Origin: Xenorhabdus khoisanae
GTDB taxonomy: Bacteria; Pseudomonadota; Gammaproteobacteria; Enterobacterales; Enterobacteriaceae
Direction of reading: 5' to 3'
NCBI RefSeq assembly: GCF_001037465.1
Contig: NZ_LFCV01000028.1
Location: 1 to 64,000 of the forward strand
DNA: 64,000 nucleotides
Program-made: the position numbers and the translations under genes
The notes under the pieces: model-generated
Seen by the model: only the letters and a program-made list of their open reading frames with translations
Database searches by the model: none
What the model was told of the DNA's origin: nothing
Shown: positions 55,208 through 64,000 of the stretch, piece by piece
Position numbering within the stretch: the first letter of the stretch is position 1
How the letters are laid out: each line of letters starts with the position of its first letter

Positions 55208-55283
55208 GCCCGGATAGCTCAGTCGGTAGAGCAGGGGATTGAAAATCCCCGTGTCGGTGGTTCGATTCCGCCTCCGGGCACCA
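55208..55283 (+). tRNA. tRNA-Phe (anticodon GAA)
   Basis: A complete 76-base cloverleaf. The acceptor stem is GCCCGGA/TCCGGGC with discriminator A and encoded CCA. The D arm is GCTC/GAGC, the anticodon stem GGGGA/TCCCC has GAA at 55241-55243, and the T arm holds TTCGATT. It is a classical integration target; the element that follows begins with an integrase. Confidence 0.98.
55262..55283 (+). other. Probable left attachment site of the island
   Basis: The 3' end of tRNA-Phe (T arm to CCA) lies 359 bases from an integrase gene. Integrases at this tRNA in enterobacteria recombine within this segment. The partner copy would be outside the window, so this is inferred. Confidence 0.45.
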
Positions 55284-55641: not shown

Positions 55642-56649
55642 TTACACAGAAAGATCCAGATATAACGCCAGCTCACTCTCCAGTGTTTTGCCCGCAACTT
55701 CCATATCAATATCAATATACTCCATTGTCGTCGCCAGACTGCGGTGCCCCAGCAGGCTTCTGACCAGTTGCAGATTACGATCCGGCGCTTTCATCAGCTC
55801 CGTGGCCAGCGTATGACGAAAACGGTGAGGGGAAACAGCAAAGCCACACTCTTTGGACAACCGATTAAAAAAAGAACGGATATGTTGCTTTTCTTTATCG
55901 TAATTGTACTGGTAACGGGTCATCCTGCCGTGATAACGAAAGCCCAGGCGGGTTAAGTCAAACAGCGGATCGTCGTCTTTCGCCCCACAGGCTCTCGCCT
56001 GTTCAACCAGTTGTGCCAGCCGGGGCCGGAGTTGCCGGATCATCGGTACCCGCCACTCGCTGTGGTTTTTGCTGCCTTCGGTACGCAGTTCAATATAATG
56101 GCCTTCCAGATTGATATCCCGCAAGCGAAGATGCAGTAACTGGTTCTGGCGCATGCCCGTTAACCGGAACGTATCCAGAACGGTCAGCCAGTACCCTGTC
56201 GGGTACAAGGCACAGCGCCCTCCCCGGGGAGCCACCTGCGCGCGCTCCTCTTCCTCATACTGCCCCATCAGCAGATAGAGACGGATGATCTGAGATTTGC
56301 TCAGAATTTTCTTCTTTTTCTTCTCTTTTTTCACTGCCGTATCGTTAAACGGATTTTCCGTGTGTGGCAGGAGTTTTCGTTCCATGCCGAAATTAAAAAT
56401 GGCCCGCAGGTGAGACACCTTATTGTTCCAGGTATGACCGGACTGTTTTTTCTCCATTAGCGAATGACGCCGCCAGCGCAGCACATCCCGGTGCGTGATC
56501 TGCTCCGGTAGTACCATTTCCCCCATAAACCGGGTAAACACCCGTTTCACTTTGCTGTAGCTCCACTCAGAGGATGGGCGTAACATATGCGAGAAAAAAT
56601 ATTCCTCCAGTAACTCATCCCAGCCCATTTTTTCTTCTGTTCCGTGCAT
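55642..56649 (-). CDS. int: Tyrosine recombinase / integrase of the tRNA-Phe island
   Basis: A 335-residue tyrosine recombinase with an N-terminal SAM-like DNA-binding domain (about residues 10-100) and a complete catalytic set: Arg167 (TGMRQNQ), His275 and Arg278 (PHRFRHT), His302 (GHRS) and nucleophile Tyr311 (TMEYID). A CAGGAAAA ribosome site precedes the ATG. It points back to tRNA-Phe, the standard layout for an island or integrative conjugative element. Confidence 0.93.
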   Translation of the reverse strand: MHGTEEKMGWDELLEEYFFSHMLRPSSEWSYSKVKRVFTRFMGEMVLPEQITHRDVLRWRRHSLMEKKQSGHTWNNKVSHLRAIFNFGMERKLLPHTENPFNDTAVKKEKKKKKILSKSQIIRLYLLMGQYEEEERAQVAPRGGRCALYPTGYWLTVLDTFRLTGMRQNQLLHLRLRDINLEGHYIELRTEGSKNHSEWRVPMIRQLRPRLAQLVEQARACGAKDDDPLFDLTRLGFRYHGRMTRYQYNYDKEKQHIRSFFNRLSKECGFAVSPHRFRHTLATELMKAPDRNLQLVRSLLGHRSLATTMEYIDIDMEVAGKTLESELALYLDLSV

Positions 56650-59785: not shown

Positions 59786-60094
59786 TTACTTGAATTGTGA
59801 CCCGTTGTCCTGACTGAGCAGCGTCCCGGTAATACCGCTGTCGAAAATCACCCTCAGTTCATCATGAATACCCAGATACGGTGACCTGCGCGGGATACCC
59901 TGCGCATTCAGCCGGGTTAAACCGTATTTATCCACCAACGCGTTGATGGCTTCAAATGGCGGGACGCCATTGGCCATCAGTTCAGCCACCGTGTCGGCTT
60001 CACACAGTGCCGTATCATTCAGGTTCAGGCCAAAATGCCGCTTCAGCAGCGTGCCGGCAATCACCTGCCAGACGGTTAAACGTAAAGGTGCCAT
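59786..60094 (-). CDS. CbtA/YkfI/YeeV-type toxin-like protein
   Basis: A 102-residue protein aligning with the CbtA family: TVWQVIAGTLLKRHFGLNLN corresponds to E. coli VEIWQILLSRLLDQHYGLTL, and INALVDKYGLTRLNAQG to the VNFLVEKYALVRTDQPG region. CbtA toxins bind MreB and FtsZ. It is shorter than the usual 124 residues. No CbeA/YeeU-type antitoxin gene is seen upstream, where it normally lies. A GAGG ribosome site precedes the ATG. Confidence 0.8.
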   Translation of the reverse strand: MAPLRLTVWQVIAGTLLKRHFGLNLNDTALCEADTVAELMANGVPPFEAINALVDKYGLTRLNAQGIPRRSPYLGIHDELRVIFDSGITGTLLSQDNGSQFK

Positions 60095-60774: not shown

Positions 60775-61245
60775 TCAGTTATGATTATTATTATTGACAC
60801 TGCGGATTAATGACGGACTCAGCACCTTATCCGGCGTGCTTAAATCCAGTACTGTACGTATCAGTTCGGTTTCTGGGTGTTGCCGCGCATATTCACGCAG
60901 TTCGCCGAACCGGTACGCATCCTCATCGGATTCATCCAGTACCGCGATACGGGCAAACACCGCTGTCGTCACCGCCAGCCCGAACGCATCGGCAGACAGC
61001 GTGACGGTTAACGCACTGTCCGGCAGATAAACAGAATACGTGGCGGCAGATGTCGGCACCATATAGGTCAGCGGTTCAGAGGCATCCCGCCTGTCCCAGC
61101 ATTCATACCGGTACTCACCACATAACTGCGCGGCGGTATTGGCAATCAGAAACCCCAGAAACAACCGCTCCAGCGGTTTTTTACCGGAAAATGCCGCAGA
61201 CAGCGCGGGACTGTCCAGCATGATAAGTTCACTTTTTTGCATCAT
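60775..61245 (-). CDS. ArdB/KlcA-type antirestriction protein (copy 1)
   Basis: A 156-residue protein with ArdB/KlcA family order: CGEYRYECWDRR, then YMVPTSAATYSVYL, the signature VTLSADAFGLAVTTAVFARIA, and FGELREYARQHPETELIRTVLD. ArdB proteins counter type I restriction when mobile DNA enters a host. AGGAGAAC precedes two adjacent ATGs. The C-terminus has an extra tail ending in NNNNHN. Confidence 0.85.
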   Translation of the reverse strand: MMQKSELIMLDSPALSAAFSGKKPLERLFLGFLIANTAAQLCGEYRYECWDRRDASEPLTYMVPTSAATYSVYLPDSALTVTLSADAFGLAVTTAVFARIAVLDESDEDAYRFGELREYARQHPETELIRTVLDLSTPDKVLSPSLIRSVNNNNHN

Positions 61246-61346: not shown

Positions 61347-61781
61347 TCATGACCCCGCTAAACCTAAAGCCTCCCGAATACACTGGGCCTGGGGATGTTG
61401 CAGCGCGTATTCCCGCAAATCACACAACCGTTCAGCGATTTCATCCTGCTTTATCAGTGCCGTCAGATAGCCCAGTACGCTCAGGGTGACCATCAGCCCG
61501 AACGTATCCGCTGACACCTCGCCGTTAAAGTCAGTGGTCTCGGTTTTGACCACATACGTGTCAGCGCGTGTCGGCACGGCATAGGCAATATTGTCCGACA
61601 CTTTCCGGCACTGCCATGTATCACACCGGTAATCCTCACAAAGCGTGACCGCCGCTTTAATGACCGTGTGTTCCAGCAGCATCAATTCCAGTGGACTGGT
61701 TTGCGGAAAAACATCCTCAAAAGGGGACAATTCAGACACCGGTACAGAATGCACCGTTGTCCTGGTTTCGTTTTGTGGCAT
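61347..61781 (-). CDS. ArdB/KlcA-type antirestriction protein (copy 2)
   Basis: A 144-residue paralogue of the neighbouring gene started at MPQNETRTTV, where CAGGGAG lies upstream; a longer frame reaches 61811. Family segments are CEDYRCDTWQCRK, YAVPTRADTYVV, EVSADTFGLMVTLSVLGYL and CDLREYALQHPQAQCIREAL. The pair is diverged, so it is an old tandem duplication or separate acquisitions. Confidence 0.85.
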   Translation of the reverse strand: MPQNETRTTVHSVPVSELSPFEDVFPQTSPLELMLLEHTVIKAAVTLCEDYRCDTWQCRKVSDNIAYAVPTRADTYVVKTETTDFNGEVSADTFGLMVTLSVLGYLTALIKQDEIAERLCDLREYALQHPQAQCIREALGLAGS

Positions 61782-62050
61782 TGTGGACTCCCTGAAAACA
61801 ACGGAGAACACATTACCCGACGGGAAACGTATTCCCCGTTGGGTGGCTGGCGTATTGGCCAGAGTGGATTAAATAACCTTCATCATCAACAACGATGATA
61901 TCTGCTTCCAAAGGTGGGCAGATGTACCACACAGTGTGTACTCCCTTGCAGGCTACGGGAGTGTTGGTGTCGCTGCCCGAAGGTGATCCTTACAAGCGAC
62001 CGGATCATCGATAAGTCTTACCACGCTAATGAACGGAAATCATAAGGTCA

Positions 62051-62374: not shown

Positions 62375-64000
62375 TTATTTATGCAACAGAGGATCCCCTA
62401 TGACTAATTCTGCTGCTTCTGCTGTTTGGGCCGGTACCTCTAATGGTTCTACCGGATCCCCACCGGGGTTAGATTCTGCGACATGTTCCTGAATCGCATC
62501 TTCATTATTACCTTCCATCGCGACTTGCTGAGGCGTTTTTTTCATGACTGCACGTATCCGACCAGGCTGAGACGAGATAATCGCGGCATGTTCTTTTGCA
62601 GAGAGTCCCTCGAATCGTTGTAAGAAATCCTGTGGATTACGCAGCCATTCTTCTTTCATTTCGGGATATAGTGAAAGCTGTGCTAGCGCGTCGAACATAC
62701 TGGATGTTGTTCGCGTGCGTTTATAATTCTCCGGAATGGTATGTCCGTCCAGTCCTGAAACAGCAGCAAGCTCGCGTTCGCTGTAAGGTTTGCCCGGGGT
62801 GTAGGGACCGGCATACCCCACATTACCGAGAACTTTCAAACCCAAAAGTTTACCGACGGCAGGATCAGACTCACGGATAGTTTTTGGTGGCAAATAGAAC
62901 GTTGAGATCCCCGTTACCTGTTTTACAACCTCGGGTTTAAGAAAATCGGCGATTTTATATTTTTCAACCAGAGGCTTCGCTATTGCTATGCTTGGTGCGA
63001 CATACAGATAAACGTCGTGTTGCGGCCCATATTCTTTTATCAGACGGTCAATCAGCACCTGAAAGTGTTGATTTTTAAAACCACTAAAATTGAAACCTAG
63101 ATTGCCAACGGCACCAACCTGAAAAATCACAACATGCGAATCGGTAAGCAAGATGCGTTTACGTAGCAGCAAGTCGGTTGCTTCAAGGGTCTGACAACCA
63201 TGAAGTGAGGGATCGATGCCAATATCGGCAAAGAGATTATCTTCGGCGGAAATCCCAGCGAGCATTTCTGCACGGAATCCTTCCTCTTTAGCTATCGCAA
63301 TGGCCCGGTGCGAAGGGTTAACAAAAACACCAGGATGACCATAAAAAACCCCTACCACATATTTCCCCTGGCGCAAGGCACGCAACATGACCTCTGCCAT
63401 CTGGACATACGTCTGGAGGCGCGGTTTGCCATCATCGTAAAGGATATACATATCATGGGCTTTTTTGGCGTTCTTCTCGATAAAAGCTTCAGTCAAGGGA
63501 TCCGCTACAGCATAAAACACTTCATCAGCTGCTTTAATATGGCCCACGGCCTCCATCGTCAGTTGCGCCAAACTTTTGATCCCTGAACCAACAATCACAA
63601 GATGACCGGGGCGAACCCCGAACGCATGCGCAATGCGGCTTGGTCTGGTGCTGGTAGCCCCTGCGCGCTCGGTCGCCAGAGTGCTAAGTCTGGCTCCACG
63701 GAGCGGCTGAGGACGGAAGGGCTGAAACTGTTTTGTGGTGTTGCTCGCGGCTGAGTCCACCTCAGGTGCATCAATTTCCAAGGCTACGACTACCACTTGC
63801 CACTGAGGATCGTCGCTCAGCTCCTGCTCCTCTAGGTAGAACTGTTTTTTGGTGTTGCTCGCGGCTGAGCACGCCACTGAGTCAACAATTTCCACTTCTG
63901 CGGCTACCGCCAGTTCGGAAGGATTTTCGTCTTCAACTGGGAAATCTGTGTTAAACACATCGTTGCTCAGTTCCCGCAGGTGATTACCAATGATATCAGC
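62375..64000 (-). CDS. Borosin-type peptide backbone alpha-N-methyltransferase/precursor fusion (5' end beyond window)
   Basis: This minus-strand frame is open to the window edge; a GTG at 63958 would give 527 residues but has a poor ribosome site, so the gene is treated as partial. Numbering from that GTG: two 38-residue tandem repeats (about 3-78, each ending SAASNTxKQF), a linker, then a tetrapyrrole-methylase-fold domain (about 117-355). GHLVIVGSGIKSL, VVGVFYGHPGVF and GISAEDNLFADI closely follow fungal OphMA. The OphMA catalytic residues Tyr66, Arg72, Tyr76 and Tyr98 correspond to Tyr174, Arg180, Tyr184 and Tyr206. A helical clasp/peptide-binding region (about 420-475) and a 54-residue tail follow, where fungal proteins carry the core peptide. 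The methylated segment is not identified. Borosin enzymes methylate backbone amides of their own or a partner peptide. Confidence 0.85.
   Translation of the reverse strand, partial: ADIIGNHLRELSNDVFNTDFPVEDENPSELAVAAEVEIVDSVACSAASNTKKQFYLEEQELSDDPQWQVVVVALEIDAPEVDSAASNTTKQFQPFRPQPLRGARLSTLATERAGATSTRPSRIAHAFGVRPGHLVIVGSGIKSLAQLTMEAVGHIKAADEVFYAVADPLTEAFIEKNAKKAHDMYILYDDGKPRLQTYVQMAEVMLRALRQGKYVVGVFYGHPGVFVNPSHRAIAIAKEEGFRAEMLAGISAEDNLFADIGIDPSLHGCQTLEATDLLLRKRILLTDSHVVIFQVGAVGNLGFNFSGFKNQHFQVLIDRLIKEYGPQHDVYLYVAPSIAIAKPLVEKYKIADFLKPEVVKQVTGISTFYLPPKTIRESDPAVGKLLGLKVLGNVGYAGPYTPGKPYSERELAAVSGLDGHTIPENYKRTRTTSSMFDALAQLSLYPEMKEEWLRNPQDFLQRFEGLSAKEHAAIISSQPGRIRAVMKKTPQQVAMEGNNEDAIQEHVAESNPGGDPVEPLEVPAQTAEAAELVIGDPLLHK
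63726..63908. repeat. 114-base in-frame repeat within the borosin-type gene
   Basis: Two copies with a 114-base (38-codon) period. The best-conserved 30 bases begin at 63726 and 63840 and differ at one position. They encode the SAASNTxKQF ends of the two N-terminal repeat units. Confidence 0.85.

Follow-up and report, generated by a model that had tools for sequence, protein, structure and literature searches.

An open reading frame at the end of the window, a 64,000-nucleotide stretch (positions 1 to 64,000) of contig NZ_LFCV01000028.1 of the insect-associated bacterium Xenorhabdus khoisanae, raises two questions: whether its product is a borosin methyltransferase akin to the fungal enzyme OphMA, and what such an enzyme would methylate. 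Ribosomal peptides methylated along the backbone are rare and useful; the methyl groups aid membrane crossing and protease resistance. The analysis finds an enzyme that is truly of the borosin type, its clasp and tail in one chain, and places it in a mobile-looking region; the notable part is a proposed double-ended arrangement.

Enzyme family and extent of the gene

The part of the frame that lies within the window encodes 541 residues, and its phmmer match to dbOphMA has an E-value of 6e-102 over residues 129-494, so that chance can be excluded. Matches to dbOphMA and OphMA range from 1e-97 to 6e-102 and span the methyltransferase and the clasp. The PDB matches comprise 25 distinct sequences. 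Of these, 19 belong to the fungal OphMA type and match over the methyltransferase and clasp (1e-88 to 6e-102), whereas the match of the six SonM-type entries lies in the catalytic domain (5e-36 to 3e-35). When the clasp region alone is used as the query, dbOphMA is found at 5.1e-8. As judged from sequence, the frame encodes an OphMA-family peptide backbone N-methyltransferase of the borosin type.

Pfam reports the fold family TP_methylase only (6e-18), a family common to this enzyme and to the ordinary tetrapyrrole methylases, and a siroheme or cobalamin methylase is one rival identity. No NCBIfam model for such enzymes scores better than 3e-5, however, and all fall well short of their cut-offs (CysG, 23.2 bits against a cut-off of 400); even the best NCBIfam model, YabN, reaches only 3e-10 and 39.6 bits against a cut-off of 525. 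Set beside an OphMA match of 6e-102 that includes the clasp, these scores exclude a siroheme or cobalamin methylase at the sequence level, and the chance that the protein is one is very slight indeed. The sequence-only reading, which had placed the protein nearer to OphMA than to the ordinary tetrapyrrole methylases, had proposed a sequence and HMM search as the check, and had described a clasp-like region and C-terminal tail in one chain, is upheld on each point, the OphMA family being the best match, the clasp being recognised and a tail of some 50 residues following it.

On the contig the frame has 643 codons, with its stop end at 62375, and continues past the right edge of the window as far as a TTG at 64291. 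Behind a conserved TGAGGATAC stretch stands an ATG, at contig position 64258, which is aligned with the ATG start of a relative in Erwinia. Because of this match the gene likely starts near 64258 and encodes a protein of 627 amino acids, which makes the GTG at 63958 internal; that GTG had earlier been taken as the start, giving a protein 100 residues too short. The window edge cuts the gene and hence the N-terminal domain of about 107 residues lies mostly outside the window. The counterpart in Xenorhabdus sp. BG5 is 98% identical to the window protein.

The predicted order of parts is the N-terminal domain, a two-unit tract, a linker, the methyltransferase, the clasp and the tail (Table 1). 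For the N-terminal domain, the Pfam search found no family, PDB sequences gave nothing better than E 0.36, plasmid records nothing better than E 2, and no viral contig was found. PHROGs and PADLOC returned nothing for the window protein or for the Erwinia protein. Structure predictions of the full-length BG5 protein (five rows, mean pLDDT 41.7) and of the N-terminal domain (two rows, mean pLDDT 49.1) were too poor to use.

Table 1. Features of the locus, in window coordinates; residues are numbered from the ATG at contig position 64258
Feature	Position	Strand	Remarks
tRNA-Phe	55208..55283	+	
Integrase beside tRNA-Phe	55642..56649	-	Phage_integrase 1.7e-18
Antirestriction protein	60775..61245	-	PF03230 7e-17
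Antirestriction protein	61347..61811	-	PF03230 5e-27
Predicted fused borosin methyltransferase gene, in-window part	62375..64000	-	open frame to window edge
C-terminal tail, residues 577-627; putative site of the core peptide	62378..62530	-	aligned with stretch leading into Erwinia C-terminal array
Clasp region, residues 466-576	62531..62863	-	matches OphMA clasp
Methyltransferase domain, residues 216-465	62864..63613	-	Y271, Y274, R280, Y284, Y306, Q380
N-terminal tract unit 2, residues 149-178; candidate substrate	63725..63814	-	ends SAASNTTKQF
N-terminal tract unit 1, residues 111-140; candidate substrate	63839..63928	-	ends SAASNTKKQF
N-terminal domain, in-window end (about 107 residues whole; contig 63938-64258)	63938..64000	-	conserved in 4 alignment rows

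The six catalytic-domain residues listed in Table 1 align, in that order, with Y63, Y66, R72, Y76, Y98 and Q172 of OphMA. Four of them had been picked out beforehand, counted from the GTG as Tyr174, Arg180, Tyr184 and Tyr206, and these are Y274, R280, Y284 and Y306, the counterparts of Y66, R72, Y76 and Y98. The positions of Y66, R72, Y76 and Q172 are kept in all 26 aligned rows and that of Y98 in 25, with split bacterial enzymes included, whilst that of Y63 is kept in 10. Since Y66, R72, Y76 and Y98 are common to the split bacterial enzymes, they mark borosin enzymes generally and not the fungal type. The conserved segment YGHPGVFVNPSHR, also highlighted at the outset, is identical in the fungal rows among the matches listed. 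According to the available part of one report, methylation by OphA was at first undetectable in the variants R72A, R72K, Y76F, Y98A and Y98F, and activity was reduced but present in Y66F (PMC6108569); in KchMA the counterpart variant, Y73F, retained most activity, as stated in the accessible text of PMC11395268.

Affinity to the fungal enzymes was gauged in the methyltransferase domain, where identity to the window protein is 99.6% for BG5, 90.9% for Erwinia, 57.0% for OphMA and 55.4% for dbOphMA, followed by Burkholderia (50.6%), the proteobacterial genome G612 (48.5%) and Azospirillum (46.5%), the remaining 18 rows kept lying between 32 and 45%. In this domain the protein is nearer to OphMA than to all bacterial proteins in the comparison that lie beyond its own clade, none of which exceeds 51%. 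In a tree of 26 rows the three Xenorhabdus and Erwinia rows group with the fungal pair, at a moderate support of 90/92 on a branch that is not starred, and with only two fungal rows that are very similar to each other. G591 (badly translated, 8% identity) and, among the 14 genome loci, L033, L037 and L052 (no usable ORF) were left out of the tree, as were L040, L041, L045, L046 and L050. AU tests reject a grouping with the bacterial fused proteins by a narrow margin only (p 0.0445 and 0.036), and the groups had been named after the tree was seen. As a description of what the sequence resembles, ‘fungal-type’ seems fair.

Candidate substrates on either side of the enzyme

The relative in Erwinia phyllosphaerae (locus L021) is a protein of 1000 amino acids with the same N-terminal domain as the window protein. 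Between that domain and the methyltransferase it has a 9-bp array of 8.2 copies (Ala-Glu-Val), and at its very C-terminal end a second 9-bp array of 17 copies (Ala-Glu-Ala/Val), so that within one chain repeats of one kind stand both before and after the enzyme. The C-terminal array is preceded by a beta-rich insert of about 350 residues after the clasp, which includes a hydrophobic, membrane-like stretch (read by eye) before the array; part of the insert is related by BLASTP to the ORF adjoining the Burkholderia enzyme (7e-10) and also to the G612 protein in its C-terminal part (5e-8). In the alignment the two arrays stand at homologous places, the tail of the window protein being matched with the stretch that runs up to the C-terminal array. 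The window protein is without the insert, the hydrophobic stretch and both arrays, and keeps two degenerate units upstream of the enzyme.

These units are imperfect, of 30 residues each, and end in SAASNT-KQF; they contain a 30-bp repeat at 96.7% (E 8e-10), and at the protein level none of 5000 shuffles matched as well. No array was detected by TRF in the window gene. Similarity to the tail is seen for unit 1, which 11 of 5000 shuffles equalled, and not for unit 2 (1179 of 5000). In a composition test of 14 proteins, four stood at 0 of 500 shuffles (Erwinia, Burkholderia ORF 2, Azospirillum H3 and Mycetohabitans H2) and the other ten did not stand out, among them the window protein (320 of 500), the N part of Xenorhabdus szentirmaii (420) and G612 (83). 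By this same test the alternation of acidic and other residues described for type III cores is clear in Erwinia (0 of 500) and not in the window protein (320 of 500). The case for substrates in the window protein comes from homology with Erwinia: the tail is homologous to the stretch before the Erwinia C-terminal array and stands where OphMA has its core, and we infer that it may be the core peptide.

The protein is probably a fused borosin, in which backbone amides of its own chain or of its dimer partner would be methylated at the expense of SAM. By analogy with OphMA, two chains would clasp each other, the C-terminal tail of one would enter the active site of the other, and methyl groups would be placed on the amides of mainly aliphatic residues. 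More tentatively, because Erwinia has expanded Ala-Glu-Val/Ala units of the same kind before and after its enzyme, the tract that separates the N-terminal domain from the methyltransferase could be a second substrate, although the odds are somewhat against it. Equally speculative is the fuller picture of a double-ended borosin that methylates its own N- and C-terminal tracts, the tracts growing and shrinking by 9-bp units and mobile elements carrying the gene between enterobacterial species. If this is true, the clasped dimer would admit two routes to the active site, and a double-sided fused enzyme would offer a compact means of producing N-methylated repeats.

The methyltransferase might instead act in trans on a separate precursor, with the tail and the N-terminal tract as mere linkers. 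Acidic and aliphatic arrays, which also count in favour of repeat tracts as substrates, do occur in a separate protein beside the Azospirillum and Mycetohabitans relatives of the enzyme and, in Burkholderia, in the ORF that follows it; the composition of the window tracts is unremarkable. However, no neighbour bearing an array is present among the ORFs around the window gene, and the Erwinia relative has its arrays in the same chain, so that action in trans is considered unlikely.

Self-methylation could also end within the protein itself, the methylated repeats serving in, for example, a surface or membrane protein of Erwinia, and no small peptide being released. For Erwinia this draws on the beta-rich insert, whose lectin-like match is weak (Pfam SBD 0.021, below cut-off), and on the hydrophobic stretch, and no maturation peptidase or tailoring gene is recognised among the annotated ORFs around the window gene. 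The window protein has neither the insert nor the stretch, and other borosins are also without a nearby peptidase, the available text of PMC11395268 noting the ‘absence of a specific peptidase’. A protein that keeps its methylated repeats is thus a rather improbable outcome.

Comparison with Erwinia shows strong constraint on the methyltransferase (dN/dS 0.043), with values of 0.065 for the clasp and 0.14 for the N-terminal domain, at a dS of 1.2 to 2.1 that is near saturation. The fastest change is in the tail (dN 1.17) and the N-terminal tract (dN 0.45). The Xenorhabdus gene could be viewed as a decaying copy that has lost the insert domain and arrays and no longer yields a product, a view with which the broken copy in X. 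szentirmaii, the absence of the insert and of both arrays from the window protein, and the 12 non-synonymous against 9 synonymous changes between the window and BG5 are all consistent, the last being too few, over 627 codons, to decide on selection. Yet two species, the window's and BG5, both keep an uninterrupted frame of 638 codons, and only one non-synonymous change falls in the 250 methyltransferase codons, which leaves decay with a low probability. The fused, self-methylating enzyme is the preferred reading.

Several related loci have arrangements of their own. Plasmids of Azospirillum and Mycetohabitans (L027:2306-11014 and L028:4115-10878) carry a long borosin methyltransferase beside large proteins, one of which contains long arrays of Val-Asp/Thr-Asp, together with a gene that is annotated StrG. 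On a Burkholderia arboris plasmid (L026:8004-10328) the ORF after the methyltransferase ORF contains a Thr-Thr-Glu-Val array. In G612 (L058:6842-10363) a single chain of 1174 residues runs from methyltransferase and clasp through a long region akin to the Erwinia insert to an acidic tail. A contig of the viral collection (L062:4566-5792) encodes a LigA-like N-terminal part (weak, Pfam 0.011), an acidic tract and then a borosin methyltransferase, an order that resembles the one described for type 0 borosins.

Genomic surroundings and distribution

The gene had been proposed to lie on a mobile tRNA-Phe island. The tRNA, the integrase and the two antirestriction genes are indeed in place (Table 1), but the right boundary is not found, no second copy of the tRNA-Phe end being present on the contig, which runs to 73149. 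Further neighbours are TraI_2, an N6-methylase-like gene and DUF1281, with a second integrase beyond the window. The same region has a CbtA-like toxin of a type IV toxin-antitoxin system (window 59786-60094), and past the second integrase a Cro-like regulator, a Vut_1 transporter and QueF stand in a row (contig 69049-71385; L002:9049-11385). The window and BG5 are collinear over about 7.5 kb at 92%, and the Erwinia copy adjoins a primase-helicase gene and lies about 3.7 kb from a tRNA-Leu.

Copies are rare, being present in three of 30 genomes of the genus, that of X. szentirmaii having one N-terminal unit, being broken over two contigs and ending before the tail does; one of 37 genomes of Erwinia's genus carries a copy. 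Across 198 genomes of the family there are 17 matches, two close (the window's and BG5's) and 15 weak (E 1e-3 to 2.8e-12), and in the order the N-terminal domain occurs in two of 295 genomes. Within the class, 10 of 369 genomes match the enzyme profile at E 1e-25 or better, and within the phylum 15 of 398 do. Searching GTDB contigs by pattern, a method that detects close relatives only, gave three loci. Plasmid records hold 13 matches, all of them more distant and all with less than 80% of the query covered, and viral contigs one; phage records have no match to the enzyme and E. coli genomes no DNA match. Searches around G612 gave no further fused relative (one of 48 and one of eight genomes, G612 itself both times). 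This patchy spread, together with the mobile-gene context, suggests horizontal movement among enterobacteria and, with the closeness to the fungal enzymes, bears on how borosins passed between fungi and bacteria.

Comparison with known borosins

In the literature searched, no paper was found on borosins in Xenorhabdus or Erwinia. The split type IV system SonM/SonA belongs to the same catalytic family (4.8e-36), but its enzyme and precursor are separate proteins, as the available text of PMC8429565 describes. OphMA and dbOphMA, the fungal fused enzymes of the omphalotin pathway, are much closer, being 57% and 55% identical in the catalytic domain and sharing the catalytic residues, the clasp and a tail after the clasp. 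In the window protein, however, the catalytic domain is preceded by about 215 residues that include a domain and a tract absent from OphMA; moreover, its tail differs in composition and its clasp is only 26% identical.

Amongst bacteria, the sequence-only reading had regarded a fused borosin as unusual. Enzyme, clasp and tail do stand in one chain here, but fused bacterial borosins are already in print, namely KchMA and types 0 and XI in the accessible part of PMC11395268. KchMA (type III), which can be compared by its published description and not by sequence, is likewise bacterial and fused and methylates its own tail; type III cores consist of alternating acidic and other residues, and only a C-terminal core is described for KchMA in that part of the paper (PMC11395268). 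Type XI (XulAM), also compared by description only, has a domain of unknown function before the methyltransferase, as the window protein has, although the methyltransferase is at its C-terminus (PMC11395268, in the same partial text). In type 0 borosins the core is N-terminal and the methyltransferase C-terminal; the window protein has an N-terminal tract too, yet its clasp and tail come after the methyltransferase. As fused bacterial borosins are known, the fusion itself is not new, whereas repeats that flank the enzyme at both ends, as in the Erwinia relative, look to be a new architecture.
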